A stretch of 64,000 bases of DNA. Source: Candidatus Ozemibacter sibiricus. Its GTDB lineage: Bacteria; Muiribacteriota; Ozemobacteria; Ozemobacterales; Ozemobacteraceae. The position numbers and the translations under genes were made by a program. The notes below the pieces were generated by a model that did not search any database, had not been told where the DNA came from, and was given only the letters and a program-made list of their open reading frames with translations. Below, piece by piece: positions 31,649 to 40,300 of the stretch. The stretch is from NCBI GenBank assembly GCA_003327425.1, contig QOQW01000017.1:62001-126000 (forward strand), written 5' to 3'. The number at the start of each line of letters is the position of its first letter. Position 1 is the stretch's first letter.

Positions 31649-32635
31649 ATGAACTGTCACCGCACACACCTGAAGGTGGGAGTGTTCATCTGCATCCTGA
31701 CGCTGCTCGGCACCGTCAGCGCTTCGGCGCAGTCGGCCCGGGCGCGCGGCATGGGCGGCGCCTTCCTCGGGGTGTCCGACGACGAGACGGCCACCTTCTA
31801 CAATCCGGCCGGTCTGTCCCAGATCCAGGGCCGGGAAGCCTCCCTCCAGTCGAAGGTCAACGAACGCGACATCTACAACTGGGATTCGCTCGCCTTCACC
31901 GGCCACATCTACGAAGACAACCCCAAAGACGTCTTCTCGATCACCGACTACCTCGAACACAACGTCCTGGAAGAGCCCATCGCCCGCCGCCCCAAATACA
32001 GCTACGGCTGCGCCTACACCCAGGACTACCGTTCGACCGCGCTCGGCCGGATGGTCGGCGGCGAGTTCCTCGGCATCCAGCGCGAGACCGACAACCTGCT
32101 GCTGGCCTTCGGCACCCGCTTCCCCATCGCCCGCCGCATGCTGGCCCGCGAGCAGCTCTATGGCGGCATCAAGATCCAGTCGGCCAACGTCGATCGCAAG
32201 ATCGCCACCCTCGGCACCCACGCCAAGCGCGAGACCCAGACCCTCGGCCTCGGCCTGATGTACCACTACAACGACCGCATCACCGGCGGGCTGACCGTCG
32301 ATAACGTCCTGCAGCGCGTGCGCGGCACGGGCAGCCAGCGTGATGGCGTCACCCTCAACCTGGGCGCCGCGCTGCGCCTGACCAAAGGAGTGCTGCTCTC
32401 GGCCGACGCCACCAATGTCACCAATGCCCCGCGCTCGTCCCAGCAGCAGTGGCGCATGGGCATCGAAAAGAAGTTCATCGAGAACGACTTCACCCTGCGG
32501 ATGGGCTCCTGGAACGGCACCCTGACCCTGGGGTTCGGCATGCACCTGATCCCCACCATCCGCTTCGACTACGCCTTCTACAATGGCGACATCGTCAAGG
32601 AGCACCACCTCGGTGCCCACGTCACCTTCGACTGA
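31649..32635 (+). CDS. PorV/FadL-like outer-membrane barrel protein
   Basis: A 328-residue protein with a signal peptide (VGVFICILTLLGTVSASA) and the opening RARGMGGAFLGVSDDETATF YNPAGL pattern of PorV/OmpP1/FadL barrels. The rest is amphipathic strands (LGLGLMYHYNDRITGGLTVD) ending in Phe-Asp. GAGGAGG precedes the ATG by 7 bases. Members form outer-membrane channels or act in type IX-like secretion (PorV). In the porin operon. Confidence 0.75.
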   Translation: MNCHRTHLKVGVFICILTLLGTVSASAQSARARGMGGAFLGVSDDETATFYNPAGLSQIQGREASLQSKVNERDIYNWDSLAFTGHIYEDNPKDVFSITDYLEHNVLEEPIARRPKYSYGCAYTQDYRSTALGRMVGGEFLGIQRETDNLLLAFGTRFPIARRMLAREQLYGGIKIQSANVDRKIATLGTHAKRETQTLGLGLMYHYNDRITGGLTVDNVLQRVRGTGSQRDGVTLNLGAALRLTKGVLLSADATNVTNAPRSSQQQWRMGIEKKFIENDFTLRMGSWNGTLTLGFGMHLIPTIRFDYAFYNGDIVKEHHLGAHVTFD

Positions 32636-33763: not shown

Positions 33764-33813
33764 GCGCGCCGCTCTGCGTGATGATGACCACAGCCCACCG
33801 AAGGAGACAACCC

Positions 33814-34761
33814 ATGAACAACCGCCATCTCTATTTGAAGCTGGCTCTGCTGGTTCTTCTGGCGCTGGTCGCCGGGCCGGCCCTGGCCGCCACCGCCTCC
33901 ACCGGGATCGATGCCGAGCTGGCCCGTCGTCTCGATCGCCTCGAGCGCTATATCTACGGCGAGGTCCAGGGCGGCGGCGTGGCCGACCGCCTCGACCGGA
34001 TCGAGAAGGATCTGCTCGGCCGCCGCACCGGCCAGCGGCCGGCCGACAAGGCCCAGACCCTGTTCAATTTCGTATTCAAAGGCACCGGCCAATCGCCCTC
34101 GCTCGACATGAAGCTGAACGTACTCGAATGGAAGGTCTTCAACGAGACCCGCCAGGGCAAGCTGGCCGACCGCATCGCCGCCCTCGACACCTTCGTCATC
34201 GGCTCGCCATCGACCGAGCCGCTGGCCTTCCGGGTCGAGCAGCTGATCCATCTGACCATCGCCAACGGCATCATCTCGCTGCACCAGGTCCGGATCCCGG
34301 CCGGCACCGCGATCAAGGTGCGGCTGGGCAAGACGATCTCGAGCAAGGACTCGCGCCAGGGCGATACGGTGCCCATGACCGTCGTCAGCGACCTGTTCAT
34401 CGACGGCAACGTGCTGGCCATCGGCAAGGGCGCCCTGCTGTCGGGCGACCTCGAGAAGGTGCAGCGCGGCCGCCGGTTCGGACGCTCGGGCTTCGTCAAG
34501 CTCGGCATCAGCGAGGTGGCCGCCATCGATGCCACGCGGGTGCCCGTCAAGATCACCGGCCTGGGCGAGGAATTCGACAAGAAGAAGCTCGGCATGGCCG
34601 CCGGCGCCTCGGCCCTCGGCTATCTGGTCATGGGCCCGGTGGGCCTCGTCGGCGGCGCCTTCGTCAAGGGCGAAGACGTCACCGTGCCCGAAGGCACCAC
34701 CCTCGACCTGGTCGTCACTGCCGATACCAAGGTGCTCGGCGTGGTAATCAACCGCTCGTAA
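33814..34761 (+). CDS. Exported protein, possible assembly or barrel-associated factor
   Basis: A 315-residue protein. The start at 33814 follows AAGGAGA by 7 bases and gives a signal peptide (LKLALLVLLALVAGPALA). The N-terminal third has charged helices (RRLDRLERYIYG, ADRLDRIEKDLLG); the second half is strands with a Gly-rich hydrophobic stretch (SALGYLVMGPVGLVGGAFV). IPAGTAIKVRLGKTISSK with DTVPMTVVSDLFIDG resembles a periplasmic sheet domain. Not recognised. Last gene of the porin operon, followed by a terminator. Confidence 0.6.
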   Translation: MNNRHLYLKLALLVLLALVAGPALAATASTGIDAELARRLDRLERYIYGEVQGGGVADRLDRIEKDLLGRRTGQRPADKAQTLFNFVFKGTGQSPSLDMKLNVLEWKVFNETRQGKLADRIAALDTFVIGSPSTEPLAFRVEQLIHLTIANGIISLHQVRIPAGTAIKVRLGKTISSKDSRQGDTVPMTVVSDLFIDGNVLAIGKGALLSGDLEKVQRGRRFGRSGFVKLGISEVAAIDATRVPVKITGLGEEFDKKKLGMAAGASALGYLVMGPVGLVGGAFVKGEDVTVPEGTTLDLVVTADTKVLGVVINRS

Positions 34762-34790
34762 TCCTTTTCTCTGGATTTCCCTCCTGTTCC

Positions 34791-34821
34791 GGGCCGCTTC
34801 AGCGCGGCCCGCGCTTTTTTT
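34791..34821 (+). terminator. Intrinsic terminator of the porin operon
   Basis: GGGCCGC (34791-34797) and GCGGCCC (34804-34810) pair over a 6-base loop and are followed by GCGC and seven T (34815-34821), 30 bases after the last stop of the operon. Confidence 0.85.
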
Positions 34822-34986
34822 CGCCGATCGTTGGCGTCGAGGCCACCCACCCCTGACCCTCGGATCGTCGCCGTTGGACGACCGCGCATCCGATCGGCCG
34901 ACGGAACGCTTCGTCGATGGGCTGCCCGATGTTTCCTCGGCTGGCCACGCGGGGGCCAGAGGCCCGCCGACCCGGCGCGATGGCAT

Positions 34987-35015
34987 TTGCCCGCCGCTTG
35001 GAAATCTGGTAGAGT
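34987..35015 (+). promoter_or_regulatory. Promoter of the fluoride-riboswitch operon
   Basis: TTGCCC (34987-34992), 17 bases, TAGAGT (35010-35015) with a TGG before the -10. The transcript would start near 35022, just before the riboswitch. The -35 is weak, so the TG extension probably matters. Confidence 0.55.
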
Positions 35016-35021
35016 GGTGGT

Positions 35022-35106
35022 GTCCTGGGGGATGGAGTCCCCCGCTAACCGCTGTCATAGCTGATGACTCCTGCCGGTCGGCGCTCCCGACCTGCAGGAG
35101 TTTTTT
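35022..35106 (+). promoter_or_regulatory. Fluoride riboswitch (crcB motif) with terminator expression platform
   Basis: The aptamer matches the crcB consensus: GGGGG/CCCCC (35027-35031, 35039-35043) around AUGGAGU, then AACCGCU (35047-35053), a short GCU/AGC hairpin, then UGAUGACUCCUGC (35062-35074). GGAGU (35034-35038) can pair with ACUCC (35067-35071) as the pseudoknot. The same ACUCCUGC is the left arm of the terminator, so fluoride binding should favour read-through, as in known examples of the class. No crcB or CLC-F gene is in the window; the switch controls the HAD phosphatase operon. The ATG at 35194 is 88 bases after the T run. Confidence 0.93.
35067..35106 (+). terminator. Riboswitch-controlled terminator
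   Basis: ACTCCTGC (35067-35074) with GCAGGAGT (35094-35101), enclosing GGTCGG/CCGACC (35076-35081, 35087-35092), followed by six T (35101-35106). The left arm is part of the aptamer, which is the usual design of a transcription-terminating switch. Confidence 0.9.
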
Positions 35107-35193
35107 CTTCGAGCGCCGAACCGCCTCCCGCCAGGGCGACGGTTCGGGATCGGCAGACGGCTGGTCGCACGCACCGGTCACGGAGGCTGAACG

Positions 35194-35664
35194 ATGATCA
35201 CGATCGACATTCCCGGGTTCAAAACCCTGGCCCTCCAGCACCTCGTTCTGGACTACAACGGCACCCTGGCCCTCGACGGTCGGCTGCTGCCCGGCGTGGC
35301 CGACGCCCTGGCCGACCTGGCCCCCCACCTGGCGATCCACGTCCTGACCGCCGATACCTTCGGCACCGCCCGCGCCCAGTTGCAGGGGCTCGCCCTGGAG
35401 CTGACCATCCTCGAGCCCGAAGAACAGGCGCGGGCCAAACGGCAACTGGTCAGCCAGCTGGGAGCCACCACGGTGGTCGCCATCGGCAACGGCCGGAACG
35501 ATCGGCTGATGCTGGCCGAAGCCGGTCTGGGCATCGCCGTCCTCCAGGCCGAAGGCGCCGCCACCGAAGCCTGGCAGGCTGCCCACCTCGTCTGCCCCAC
35601 CATCCTGGACGCGCTGGACCTGCTGCGGCATCCCCGGCGCCTGGTGGCGACCCTCCGCGGATGA
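35194..35664 (+). CDS. HAD-family phosphatase, soluble P-ATPase type
   Basis: A 156-residue HAD protein of the COG4087-like group. Nucleophile motif is LVLDYNGTLALDG (D20; Asn instead of the second Asp, typical of the group), motif II VLTADTFG, and metal motif IGNGRNDRLMLAEA. GGAGG lies 7 bases before the ATG. It is the first gene after the fluoride riboswitch; genes of this type are recurrent neighbours of that switch. The substrate is unknown; dephosphorylation of a fluoride-sensitive or fluoride-substituted metabolite is a guess. Confidence 0.85.
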   Translation: MITIDIPGFKTLALQHLVLDYNGTLALDGRLLPGVADALADLAPHLAIHVLTADTFGTARAQLQGLALELTILEPEEQARAKRQLVSQLGATTVVAIGNGRNDRLMLAEAGLGIAVLQAEGAATEAWQAAHLVCPTILDALDLLRHPRRLVATLRG

Positions 35665-35785
35665 GGGCCGCCTTGGTTGGTTGGTGTTCACCGTCGTGCC
35701 ACCGTTGCTCACCCCTTCCTGAACCCGACCGCCCCGCGTTTCCCCTGGTGGAGCTTCCTGAGCCGTCCATGAAAGGAGTCGTCGC

Positions 35786-37750
35786 ATGACCGCCAGCACC
35801 CCCATCCCGACCAATGGCCCCGAGAAAGATCCGATGGTGATCCTGCCACCCTTGCTGGACCAGGCCATCGCCGCGCTGACCGACTTGGACCCCGATCTGG
35901 CCGCCTACGGTCCCAAGTTCGCGGCGTTGCAGGCCCGGTGGCGGGAAGGGCGGTTCCACCTGGCCGTCCTGGGCCAGTTCAAGCGGGGCAAGAGCACTCT
36001 GCTGAACGCCCTGCTCGGCGCCGAGGTCCTGGCCACCTCGGTGGTGCCGCTGACCGCCATTCCGACCTTCCTGTCCTGGGGCGAGAAGCGCCGGGCCCGC
36101 ATCACCTTCTCCGATGACAAGCCGCCCGAAGACCGGACCTTCACCGCCGATGCCCAGCTCCACGACTTCCTCAGCACCTACGTCACCGAGGCCGGCAACC
36201 CCAAGAACCGACTCGAGGTCTCGCATGTCGAGGTCTTCCTGCCGGCCGACCTGTTGCGCAAGGGCGTGGTGCTGATCGATACCCCGGGCATCGGCTCGAC
36301 CTTCCGGCACAACACCGAGGCGACCCTCAACTTCTTGACCCAATGCGACGCGGCCCTGTTCATCGTGTCGGCCGACCCCCCGGTGACCGAGGTGGAGGTC
36401 GAGTTCCTCAAGCAGGTGCGGCACAAGGTGCCCCACCTGTCCTTCGTCATGAACAAGATCGACTACCTCGACGAGACCGAACGCGCCACCGCCCTCGATT
36501 TCTTCCGCAAGGTGCTGGAAGGGCAGGGGGGCATCGCCATCGGGCCCGAGATCTTCACCGTCTCGGCCCGCCGCGGTCTGCAGGCGCGTCTGGCCGGCGA
36601 CCCCGCCGGCTGGCAGGCTAGCGGCCTGGCGCGCCTGGAAGCGCATCTGATCGACTTCCTGGCCACCGGCAAGAGCCGGACCCTGGCCCAGGCCCTTGCC
36701 CGCAAGGCCCAGACCCTGACCGACGAGGCGGTCATGTCGATCGAGGTCCGCCTGCGGGCCATGGACATCTCGATCGAAGAGCTCGAGCGCCGTCTGGCCA
36801 CCTTCGAACGCAAGCTGCAGGAGGCGGAGCAGGAACGGCTGACCTCGCAGGATCTCCTCAAAGGCGCCAATCGCCGGATGCACGAGTTCCTGGAGGAGTA
36901 TGCGGAAGAGCTGCGCCGTCGCGCGCTGGCCTACCTCGACAGCCGAGTCCGCGAGGCCATCGAACGAAGCAACGGCGACGGCATCGACGAAGACATGGTG
37001 CGCGACCTGCTGGCGCAGGTCATTCCCGGTTATTTCGAACACGAGACGGGCAAGGCGGTCAAGACGTTCGAGGCCCGCATGGCCGAAGCGCTACGCCCCT
37101 TCCAGCGCCGGACCGACGAACTGATCGGCCTGATCCGCAAGACGGCGGCCGAGCTGTTCGACATTCCCTACCGGGCGCCCGACAGCGCCGACGCCTTCAA
37201 GATGATCGAGAAACCCTACTGGGTCACCCACAAGTGGCGGGCCGGCCTGCGTTCGCTGACCGGCAGCTTCCTCGACCATTTCACCTCGGCGGCTTCCCGC
37301 CAAGCGCGAGCCCTGGCCCGCATCGCCGAACAACTGCAGCTGCTGGTCGTCGAGAATGTCGAGAACCTGCGCTGGCCCATCTTCCAGAGCATCGACCAGA
37401 CCTTCCTGCACTTCGGCTCGACACTCGATGATCGGCTCAAGGAGACCATCGCCGCCACGCACGGCGCCATGAAGGCCACCCTCGACGTCCGCCGGACCCG
37501 CGCCAGCCAGCTGGAGCCGCTACGGCAGCGGTATGCCGAGGCCGTCCATCGCCTGGTCGAGCTGAGCGCCGCCTTCGTCACGGTGGGCGGCGCCCCCCCG
37601 CAGCCCCCCGCCGCCAGCGCCACCGGCAGTGCCAGCGGTGTCACCGGCCGCGCCTCTGCCAACGCCGGGGGCAGTGACTTGGGCCGCGCTCGCCCGGCGA
37701 ACGGAGCCGAGCCGACGGCCGCCCCGCCGACGGGGCCGGGCTCGTTCTGA
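35786..37750 (+). CDS. Dynamin-like GTPase
   Basis: A 654-residue dynamin superfamily protein. G1 GQFKRGKST at 63-71, G2 region PLTAIPT near 88-94, G3 DTPGIGST at 165-172, G4 NKID at 223-226. The C-terminal half is a long helical region (LERRLATFERKLQEAEQERL; coiled coil around 330-360) typical of the helical stalk, with a helix-rich segment (FKMIEKPYWVTHKWRAGLRS) and a Ala/Gly/Pro tail. No signal or membrane segments. AAGGAG lies 7 bases before the ATG. Third element of the fluoride-switched operon; 16 bases before the MutS-like gene. Bacterial dynamins often protect or remodel membranes. Confidence 0.88.
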   Translation: MTASTPIPTNGPEKDPMVILPPLLDQAIAALTDLDPDLAAYGPKFAALQARWREGRFHLAVLGQFKRGKSTLLNALLGAEVLATSVVPLTAIPTFLSWGEKRRARITFSDDKPPEDRTFTADAQLHDFLSTYVTEAGNPKNRLEVSHVEVFLPADLLRKGVVLIDTPGIGSTFRHNTEATLNFLTQCDAALFIVSADPPVTEVEVEFLKQVRHKVPHLSFVMNKIDYLDETERATALDFFRKVLEGQGGIAIGPEIFTVSARRGLQARLAGDPAGWQASGLARLEAHLIDFLATGKSRTLAQALARKAQTLTDEAVMSIEVRLRAMDISIEELERRLATFERKLQEAEQERLTSQDLLKGANRRMHEFLEEYAEELRRRALAYLDSRVREAIERSNGDGIDEDMVRDLLAQVIPGYFEHETGKAVKTFEARMAEALRPFQRRTDELIGLIRKTAAELFDIPYRAPDSADAFKMIEKPYWVTHKWRAGLRSLTGSFLDHFTSAASRQARALARIAEQLQLLVVENVENLRWPIFQSIDQTFLHFGSTLDDRLKETIAATHGAMKATLDVRRTRASQLEPLRQRYAEAVHRLVELSAAFVTVGGAPPQPPAASATGSASGVTGRASANAGGSDLGRARPANGAEPTAAPPTGPGSF

Positions 37751-37766
37751 CCCGCCGCCCGCGCCG

Positions 37767-39128
37767 ATGATCGTCGACCGCGAGACCCTCGCCGACCTCG
37801 AGATCTTCGCCTGCCGCTCGGGCGGCCAGCCGGTCATCGCCTACCTCGACCGCTGCCGAACGGAAGGCGGAGCCGACGAGCTGCGCACGCTCATCGCCAA
37901 GGGGCCGGGCCATGACGTCCCGATCCGCGAGCTGCAGGAGGTGACGCGGTTCTTCTACGACCATGGCCAGGGCCTGACCTTCCCCGTCGACCGCAAAGCC
38001 GCCCGCGCGCTCGAACAGTATCTGGCATCGAACTTCACCGGGATCGACCTGCCCCTCTCCTGGAGCCGCCATCTCCAGTCGTTCATCCTGCGCTATCGCT
38101 GCCCCGAGATGTACCAGTTCTGCCACAGCGGGATCCAGGAGACCATGAAGACGCTCGCAGCCGCCGTCGCCTTCGTCACGGCGGTGACCGAGGCGGGCGA
38201 GAGCCCTCCGGCGGTGCGGGCGCTCGCCGGAGAGTTCCTCCGCCTTTGGCAGGAGATCGGCGGCCCCGGGCTGGCCGCCCGCTGCCAGGATCCGTCGACC
38301 ACCGAGGTCTTCGTGATCGATCATCTGCTGCGGAGCCAGAACCGGGACAACCTGCGCCGGATGCTGCGCCTGCTCTACCGCCTCGACGCGCACGTCGGCA
38401 TGGCCATCGCCACGCGGGAGCACGGCTTGGTCTTTCCCACCATCGTCGAGGGCCCCGACCGCCGGATCGAGATCGAAGGGCTGTATCATCTCTTCCTCGC
38501 CAGGCCGGTCCGCAACGATTTCCGGCTCGATGGCGCGCAGAATCTGCTGTTTCTGACCGGGCCCAACATGGCCGGCAAATCGACCTACATGAAGGCGGTG
38601 GGCATCGCCGTCATCCTGGCGCACATCGGCATGGGAGTGCCGGCTGCGGCGATGAGCGTGTCCCCGATCGATTACCTGTTCTGCGAACTCAGCATGCACG
38701 ACGACATTCGGCTGGGCATCAGCGGATTCCTGGCCGAGGTGCTGCGCGTGCAGCGGATCCTGCAGTTCTGCGCCGGCCGCTTCAAGCTGCTGGTCATCAT
38801 CGATGAGATCTTCAAGGGCACCAACGTCCATGACGCCTACGCCTGCTCCAAGCTCGTCATCACCGGACTGGCCAGGCTGCGCGATCATTTCTTCCTCATC
38901 TCGTCCCATCTGCTCGAACTGGAAGCAGACCTGCGCCCGTTCCGCAACATCCGGTTCCGCTGCTTCGATGCCGCCCTGCAGAACGGCGCCCTCTCGTTCT
39001 CCTACCGCATCGCCGACGGCGTCTCCCCGACCCGGGTCGGCCTGCAGCTCCTGGCCGAACACGGGATCATCGACATGTTCCGGGAACTGGAACGAACCCC
39101 GTCCCCGGCCGCCGCCGAACGCCCCTGA
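37767..39128 (+). CDS. MutS-family ATPase, C-terminal domain type
   Basis: A 453-residue protein with only the lever and ATPase part of MutS: Walker A GPNMAGKSTYMKAVG at 265-273 onward, a FCELSMHDDIRLGISGF segment, Walker B LLVIIDEIFKGTN at 341-353, and a DHFFLISSHLLELE switch. It lacks the mismatch-binding domain, so mismatch repair is unlikely. The start at 37767 is 16 bases after the dynamin gene; the frame is open upstream but that part lies inside the dynamin gene. MutS-like genes are known companions of the fluoride riboswitch, which supports the operon. Confidence 0.88.
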   Translation: MIVDRETLADLEIFACRSGGQPVIAYLDRCRTEGGADELRTLIAKGPGHDVPIRELQEVTRFFYDHGQGLTFPVDRKAARALEQYLASNFTGIDLPLSWSRHLQSFILRYRCPEMYQFCHSGIQETMKTLAAAVAFVTAVTEAGESPPAVRALAGEFLRLWQEIGGPGLAARCQDPSTTEVFVIDHLLRSQNRDNLRRMLRLLYRLDAHVGMAIATREHGLVFPTIVEGPDRRIEIEGLYHLFLARPVRNDFRLDGAQNLLFLTGPNMAGKSTYMKAVGIAVILAHIGMGVPAAAMSVSPIDYLFCELSMHDDIRLGISGFLAEVLRVQRILQFCAGRFKLLVIIDEIFKGTNVHDAYACSKLVITGLARLRDHFFLISSHLLELEADLRPFRNIRFRCFDAALQNGALSFSYRIADGVSPTRVGLQLLAEHGIIDMFRELERTPSPAAAERP

Positions 39129-39352
39129 GGCGCCCGCCCCTTTCTCCACCACCGCCGCCGCGAGTTCATCCCCCCGACCCTGATTGGCGATCAAGACGCC
39201 GCCAACCTGACCACCGGTGAAGCCGCCGGACGCCGGCCGAGGGCCACGTGTTCGGCCACCGGCCCCTGGCGGTAGTCGTCAAGGCAAAGTCGCTCCGCCG
39301 CGCCAGGCTCCCTGCCGCCGGCTGCTTTCGCCCTGGGCGACCGGATGGATGG

Positions 39353-39381
39353 TTCGGAGAAGCGGGCTGGTGTGGTATGCT
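39353..39381 (+). promoter_or_regulatory. Promoter of yitT
   Basis: TTCGGA (39353-39358), 17 bases, then TGTGG-TATGCT with the -10 TATGCT at 39376-39381. The start codon is 32 bases downstream. The TGTGGTAT core is shared with the promoters at 24749 and 42701. Confidence 0.5.
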
Positions 39382-39412
39382 GGCGCCCGAATTCCCGATG
39401 GAGGTTCGACCC

Positions 39413-40300
39413 ATGACCGCCACTGCGCCGCGCCCGGTGGGCGCGTTCGATCTCTTCCTGGTCGTGCTGGGCTCGGTGATTTCGACGCTGGGCCTGGTCT
39501 GCTTCACCATTCCCAACAAGATCGCCGCCGGCGGCCTGACCGGCCTGGCCACCGTGCTGTATTTCGCGGTGGGACTGCCGGTCGGCGCCGTGGTGCTGAC
39601 CGGCAACCTCGCGCTGATCGCCGCCCAGATGAAGCTGGTCGGCTTCCGGTCGGCCGGGAAGACGGTGCTGTCGGTGGCCCTGACCTCGGTGCTGATCGAG
39701 CTGCTGATGCGGGTCTGGCCCATCTCGCCGCTGGCCACCGATCCCATCCTGGCCTGTCTCTACGGCGGTATTCTGAGCGGGATCGGCGTCGGCGTCACCT
39801 TCCGTGGCGGCGGCACCACGGGCGGCGTCGACATCGTCGCCCAGATCTGTCACCATCTGTTCCACTGGCCGATCGGCGATGTCATCCTGGTCACCAATTT
39901 CCTGATCACGATCGGCGCCGGTTTCGTCTTCGGCCCCCAATTGGCGCTCTACGGCTTGATCACCGTCTTCTTCAGCGGCTGGGTGGTCGATGCCGTGCTC
40001 GAAGGCATCGCGGTCTACCGCAGCGTGCTGATCATCACCCAGAACCCCAACGAAGTGGCCTGGGCCATCATGGAGGAGCTCCACCGCGGCGTCACCTGCA
40101 TCGATGCCCGCGGCATGTACACGAGCGCGCCGACCAACGTCCTGCTGGTGGCGGTGCGCCGGATGGAGCTGCCCCAGATGCGCCAGCTGATCTACGAGTT
40201 CGATCCCAACGCCTTCGTCATCGTCGGCGACGCTCGCCAGGTGCTGGGCCGCGGCTTCCTGAGCCTCGGCGACCAGGTCAAACGGCAGACCCAGGGATAG
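39413..40300 (+). CDS. YitT/YczE-like membrane protein with DUF2179 domain
   Basis: A 295-residue protein with about five membrane helices (ISTLGLVCFTIPNKIAAGGL; PVGAVVLTGNLALIAAQM; VILVTNFLITIGAGFVFGPQ) and a cytoplasmic C-terminal DUF2179 domain (VTCIDARGMYTSAPTNVLLV, then LIYEFDPNAFVIVG). GGAGG lies 8 bases before the ATG at 39413. The family is thought to transport an unidentified small molecule. Not clearly part of the riboswitch operon because of the 284-base gap and its own promoter. Confidence 0.87.
   Translation: MTATAPRPVGAFDLFLVVLGSVISTLGLVCFTIPNKIAAGGLTGLATVLYFAVGLPVGAVVLTGNLALIAAQMKLVGFRSAGKTVLSVALTSVLIELLMRVWPISPLATDPILACLYGGILSGIGVGVTFRGGGTTGGVDIVAQICHHLFHWPIGDVILVTNFLITIGAGFVFGPQLALYGLITVFFSGWVVDAVLEGIAVYRSVLIITQNPNEVAWAIMEELHRGVTCIDARGMYTSAPTNVLLVAVRRMELPQMRQLIYEFDPNAFVIVGDARQVLGRGFLSLGDQVKRQTQG

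Follow-up and report, generated by a model that had tools for sequence, protein, structure and literature searches.

Why does a gene for a dynamin-like GTPase lie behind a fluoride riboswitch? The question is raised by a locus in the window (the whole 64,000-nt stretch of DNA that was analysed), where the riboswitch is followed by genes for a HAD-superfamily protein, the dynamin-like GTPase and a MutS-like ATPase. Fluoride toxicity is usually put down to enzyme inhibition and ion accumulation. The preliminary description had called HAD and MutS-like genes known companions of this switch, and the literature agrees: mutS behind the crcB-motif RNA was already described by Weinberg et al. (2010; PMC2864571), and HAD genes are common riboswitch partners together with antiporters, PPase and enolase (2024 review, PMC11139923). 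In its aptamer, pseudoknot, competing terminator and HAD and MutS companions the locus resembles the fluoride riboswitch regulon of these two papers. It differs in the dynamin-like GTPase, which is not among the genes named in either (the words dynamin and GTPase are absent from the review). Literature searches that paired fluoride with dynamin, MutS or HAD turned up no previous dynamin link; the supplement of the 2012 regulon survey lay outside their scope. That survey (Baker et al., in Science) reportedly lists the fluoride riboswitch regulon.

Rfam cmscan was run over the whole window. The single match at the gathering threshold (34 bits for RF01734) is a full-length one (model 1-64), and it confirms the fluoride riboswitch that had been placed upstream of the operon (Table 1). 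All the aptamer parts read in the preliminary description are present: the GGGGG/CCCCC stem, AACCGCU and UGAUGACUCC. The pseudoknot pairs GGAGU of the loop with ACUCC of the 3' strand, and the two covary in relatives (GGAGU/ACUCC in the window, GAAGU/ACUUC in L136 and GAGGU/ACCUC in L250). The competing terminator also holds up in RNA folding. It consists of a hairpin (35066-35102) and six T (35101-35106). The predicted fold of RNA 35062-35112 is a two-part stem with -27.0 kcal/mol (z = -6.2), a stability that none of 200 shuffles reached. A generic terminator scan did not have the 35066-35102 terminator among its results. The terminator is kept in the sister species G001 and G002, where its stem shows compensating and G-U changes. 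Expression platform and aptamer are mutually exclusive, the ACUCC strand being common to the terminator and the pseudoknot. This arrangement agrees with a fluoride-ON switch of transcription. In the absence of fluoride, the terminator would form in the nascent RNA and transcription would end; with fluoride, the aptamer pseudoknot would take the ACUCC strand and block the terminator, and the HAD, dynamin-like GTPase and MutS-like ATPase genes would be transcribed. Fluoride switching and induction of the operon are thus predictions from the RNA sequence. Directly upstream, TTGCC and TCTGnTAGAnT with 17-nt spacing are invariant across three aligned species of the genus and the flanking sequence has diverged. 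The site fits a promoter that would launch transcription at the aptamer; we infer this promoter, because the site was under the threshold of a consensus promoter scan.

Table 1. Features of the fluoride riboswitch locus (positions in the window).
Feature	Position	Strand	Basis
Candidate sigma-70-type promoter, TTGCCC - 17 nt - TGgTAGAGT (extended -10)	34987..35015	+	Conservation
Fluoride riboswitch aptamer (crcB motif, RF01734)	35019..35080	+	cmscan, 55 bits, E 1.7e-12
Intrinsic terminator (expression platform)	35066..35106	+	RNA folding; 5' arm ACUCC shared with the pseudoknot 3' strand
Small HAD-superfamily protein, 156 aa	35194..35664	+	Pfam Hydrolase_3; P-type-ATPase-like motifs, DxN, GNGxND
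Dynamin-like GTPase, 654 aa	35786..37750	+	Dynamin_N, E 9.9e-27
Short MutS-like ATPase, 453 aa	37767..39128	+	MutS_V, E 9.2e-34, residues 262-428

The open reading frame list agrees with three genes in one direction, with 88 nt from the T-run to the HAD gene, 121 nt from there to the dynamin gene and 16 nt between the dynamin and MutS-like genes. The first gene had been described as a HAD phosphatase. The superfamily assignment is correct and the phosphatase label is weak. The nearest solved structures are P domains of P-type ATPases. In the family alignment (A2) Asp20 is kept, and all nine members have Asn or Thr, not Asp, at the +2 position and GNGxND in motif IV (vs GDGxND), Asn replacing Asp. 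Assignment to the DxDxT class of phosphatases was rejected on these two positions; ordinary phosphatase chemistry is therefore not to be presumed, and an ordinary phosphatase appears unlikely from the motifs. The reduced-charge Mg site of this family might itself be a fluoride adaptation.

The third protein carries MutS domain V with intact Walker motifs. Its PDB matches pair residues 188-434 of 453 aa with MutS 541-781, the ATPase end only, and neither the domain scan nor the PDB matches detected the mismatch-recognition domain I. The NCBIfam model for KamC (a MutS-like ATPase, enzyme reactivase) matches at 1.4e-28, below its cut-off. Because the matches consist of the MutS ATPase end and this sub-cut-off KamC hit, a mismatch-repair role is unsupported, and membership among the mismatch-repair proteins was rejected. 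The preliminary description had hinted at a membrane- or DNA-linked part of the fluoride response; its DNA side is weak, since of MutS the protein shows only the ATPase end, and its membrane side is kept below as a suggestion. A single-sequence AF2 model of the MutS-like protein had a pLDDT of 39.5 and was set aside. A search of a genome contig collection with this protein returned mostly ordinary MutS1/MutS2 loci with no dynamin or HAD neighbours (the best contig locus had no riboswitch) and so yielded no named relatives, and the plasmid search with MutS found ordinary MutS.

The dynamin-like GTPase has the G1, G3 and G4 motifs (GQFKRGKS, DTPG and NKID), and in NCBIfam and Pfam only generic dynamin models match it. 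Its family profile gives Nostoc BDLP (PDB 2j68/2j69) as the best PDB match (3.3e-37). The AF2 model, made with 24 relatives, has a mean pLDDT of 78.6 and is predicted to contain a GTPase domain, four long helices (330-394, 402-457, 502-571 and 573-601) and a tip (458-501) with low pLDDT. In a fold search with this model BDLP and IniA were the top matches across most of the length. BDLP and IniA are membrane dynamins, and BDLP carries its membrane paddle at the position matching the tip. The tip is richer in Trp and Pro than the trunk in most members; its hydrophobicity varies, the tip being hydrophobic in several members (KD up to +0.63) but not in the clade of the window protein (KD -0.53). 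GTPase, trunk helices and a tip element are common to BDLP and the modelled window protein, which differs in its sequence (~18% identity), in its fluoride riboswitch control and in belonging to a fluoride clade that splits from the generic dynamins of the same genomes. For the mycobacterial dynamin IniA (PDB 6j72; E 5e-20) the inducer is a toxic compound, isoniazid, as fluoride would be for the window dynamin; the two differ in inducer, control and operon partners.

Two separate searches were made in a domain-wide sample of 382 genomes. RF01734 gave 117 matches in 88 genomes, and a dynamin profile built from nine sequences gave scores that split cleanly into full-length (at least 239 bits) and partial (at most 180 bits) matches. 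A riboswitch lies upstream, on the same strand and within 8 kb, of 13 of the 16 full-length non-seed dynamins, compared with 1 of the 45 distant, partially matching ones (Fisher p = 1.1e-9), a comparison that is conditioned on similarity to linked seeds and therefore speaks for a clade-specific link, not for a trait of all dynamins; close relatives are favoured in the count because the first-pass profile was made only from riboswitch-linked members. The riboswitch is within 200 nt for 10 of these 13 dynamins, and two of these riboswitches score slightly below the Rfam cut-off (33.3 and 32.8 bits). Counted from the RNA side, 19 of the 117 fluoride riboswitches (~16%) have a dynamin downstream in this sample, which is enriched for the window's relatives and does not give a domain-wide rate; a dynamin behind a fluoride riboswitch is therefore not rare. 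In another phylum, that of G051, a protein-only search gave seven matches at E<1e-20, all with a fluoride riboswitch nearby, and several dynamin loci there have CrcB and DUF190 downstream. The phylum of G186 added two further genomes with the link and two without it. Homologues without a detected riboswitch thus number 3 of 16, or 5 of 20 with these further genomes included; cmscan of the extended loci of G332, G176:C39 and G335 again found no fluoride riboswitch. (The dynamin start in G332 immediately follows an apparent upstream reading frame.) Generic dynamins served as controls; those checked, in the same genomes or in others, had no fluoride riboswitch nearby.

The tree places the window's dynamin in a clade of 12 rows, 11 of them riboswitch-linked; most generic dynamins group apart, and some deep joins are weak. 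Members of the clade are mostly under fluoride riboswitches, often as the first or only gene. In at least three genomes (G186, G321 and G174) the dynamin has no other sense gene close behind it, so the riboswitch seems to serve the dynamin alone. It was concluded that this dynamin clade is very probably a genuine member of the fluoride riboswitch regulon, and the earlier proposal of the dynamin as a fluoride-response gene is well supported by these counts. Frequent control of one dynamin gene by the riboswitch, in some cases of that gene by itself, indicates that cells treat the dynamin as a part of the fluoride response, and the dynamin looks like an overlooked part of bacterial fluoride survival.

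The window's genome (G000) is a 5.7-Mb draft from a small phylum (40 genomes in the collection searched). Its second fluoride riboswitch, at G000:C26:48357-48419 on a different contig, is followed by an antiporter, UspA, CrcB (PF02537, E 1.1e-24) and a DUF190-CBS gene; antiporter, UspA and DUF190 were named by sequence resemblance. The preliminary description had stated that no fluoride exporter is in the window. None was found there, and a CLC search of the genome gave no match; the statement has to be complemented by the CrcB of the second locus. With CrcB under its own riboswitch on the other contig, the window operon is therefore a second, exporter-free fluoride unit. The antiporter start codon lies ~27 nt beyond the end of the second riboswitch (L003 8358-8420), which lacks a T-run and whose ACUCC strand could pair with the GGAGGAG ribosome site; this riboswitch may therefore control translation.

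In the sister species G002 the riboswitch locus is in the same place, in the order upstream gene, riboswitch, HAD, dynamin and YitT. The conserved flanking genes are 33778-34761 (a 327-aa protein with no family assigned) and 39398-40300 (YitT family) in the window. MutS is absent from this operon in G002, which qualifies the three-gene operon supported at the window locus; the HAD-dynamin gap is ~50 nt in G002 vs 121 nt in the window. The G001 operon lacks a dynamin; behind the riboswitch come enolase, HAD, a tyrosine-phosphatase-like gene and MutS. In G021 an MFS transporter precedes dynamin, HAD and MutS, in this order. Gene order and content thus vary. G001 also has two fluoride riboswitches that converge on one antiporter-CrcB-DUF190 unit (L133; G001:C117 28189-28250 on the + strand and 32061-32124 on the - strand), the one on the + strand with no clear gene behind it. 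Across bacteria, the dynamin clade is found behind riboswitches in many unrelated families and adjoins CrcB, antiporter, Usp, enolase, PPase, HAD or MutS. HAD or MutS is again its neighbour in distant taxa, as in G337 (CrcB-DUF190-DUF190, then antiporter-Usp-dynamin-HAD), G280 (CrcB, enolase and PPase, then a dynamin-MutS pair) and G355 (riboswitch-MutS-MutS-dynamin). HAD and dynamin co-occur across genomes with p 1.6e-6, seeds excluded.

What the dynamin does in the fluoride response can be read in more than one way. Fluoride responses in the 2024 review include altered membrane structure and integrity (PMC11139923). The dynamin would be a stress-induced type like IniA or BDLP that attaches to the inner membrane and spends GTP on tethering, resealing or remodelling membrane damaged or de-energised by HF entry and by the loss of pH and ion gradients. 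Exporters and antiporters would clear ion and acid in parallel, and the HAD and MutS-like proteins would probably, in a tentative assignment, protect or reactivate fluoride-blocked phosphoryl-transfer machinery. That the dynamin is such a BDLP/IniA-like guard of the cell membrane is, taken alone, close to an even call. The whole composite (a fluoride-ON operon, a dynamin clade under the riboswitch, a membrane-acting dynamin and HAD/MutS rescue) is the account that we favour with modest confidence. Alternatively, dynamin, MutS-like and HAD proteins might all dislodge or reactivate enzymes caught in complexes with fluoride species such as MgF3- or AlFx, with no action on the membrane. The three families share Mg-dependent binding of nucleotide or phosphate, two riboswitch partners, enolase and PPase, are classic targets of fluoride, and KamC, whose model the MutS-like protein resembles, is a reactivase of an unrelated enzyme; the HAD-dynamin co-occurrence points the same way. 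Against it, the dynamin has what is modelled as a complete BDLP/IniA-like architecture, and its occurrence alone behind riboswitches shows that HAD or MutS is not required. We know of no client enzyme, and we regard a pure enzyme-rescue role as unlikely.

The varying gene order and content, and the G001 operon without dynamin, might suggest that the riboswitch operons of this lineage acquired a neighbouring dynamin and that only HAD or MutS is relevant to fluoride. However, the dynamin recurs behind riboswitches in many families, mostly as the first gene, and forms apparent units with a riboswitch and no other gene, which makes a mere passenger very improbable. The 121-nt HAD-dynamin gap could house a promoter from which dynamin and MutS would be transcribed in this organism regardless of fluoride. 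No promoter-like site was found in 34700-39450, in a weak scan that also missed the conserved upstream site; the gap shrinks in G002, and in relatives the dynamin is the first gene after the switch. Separate transcription is thus improbable, if somewhat less so than a passenger gene. PADLOC models for LeoA and LeoBC match the dynamin at 3e-17 and 5e-17, as would be expected of a Leo-like anti-phage module that is fluoride-inducible by coincidence. Yet the Leo models likely score many bacterial dynamins, these matches were judged generic and the neighbours across taxa are fluoride genes; we find this reading scarcely credible. Returning to the membrane-acting dynamin, its broadest form would make a dedicated bacterial dynamin clade a widespread fluoride-tolerance effector, in which a problem of membrane injury or topology is met by GTP-driven mechanics in parallel to export, pH control and target replacement. 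This extension is more tentative than the membrane role itself, and we would sooner doubt than assert it. The dynamin link offers a handle on two questions, the role of most bacterial dynamins and whether fluoride damages membranes at all.

Riboswitch-controlled multigene fluoride islands are known from the Enterobacter cloacae FRM operon (ppaC, uspA, eno, gpmA, crcB), which was shown to be induced (PMC5533749). Its six named genes include neither dynamin nor HAD nor MutS, and the window operon differs in turn by having no exporter. PPase and enolase are common to the FRM operon and to islands on plasmids of Burkholderia cenocepacia and B. multivorans. These plasmids carry four fluoride riboswitches, each with its own gene set (HAD-PPase, hypothetical-dynamin, a MutS pair and a formate-hydrogenlyase-like set), and enolase and PPase adjoin. 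A Lichenicola cladoniae plasmid has the dynamin in divergent orientation to riboswitch-CrcB-Usp. The tree places these dynamins of Burkholderia and Lichenicola at a distance, and they may represent separate recruitments.

Several other observations were made at the riboswitch-linked loci. In L188 (NZ_CP053712.1) the annotated coding sequence of the CrcB beside the dynamin has 1230 bases (409 aa), so that this CrcB is fused or extended. Recurrent neighbours of the riboswitch-linked dynamins include a Cys-rich DUF6062-type protein with ~216 aa (L147 8463-9110, L191, L192, L193 and L247). A 26-kb island (L256 and L257; G204:C1:3458275-3483855) has six fluoride riboswitch matches, three above the Rfam cut-off and the rest weaker or truncated, with genes for hydrogenase-4/NDH-type subunits, Usp, CrcB, MFS and several transposases. 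MFS transporters recur in riboswitch-dynamin operons and in the G204 island (L136 1026-2363, L192 9716-10930 and L257 1665-2870), and ORFs that look similar, by appearance only, are found in L193, L249, L252 and L254.
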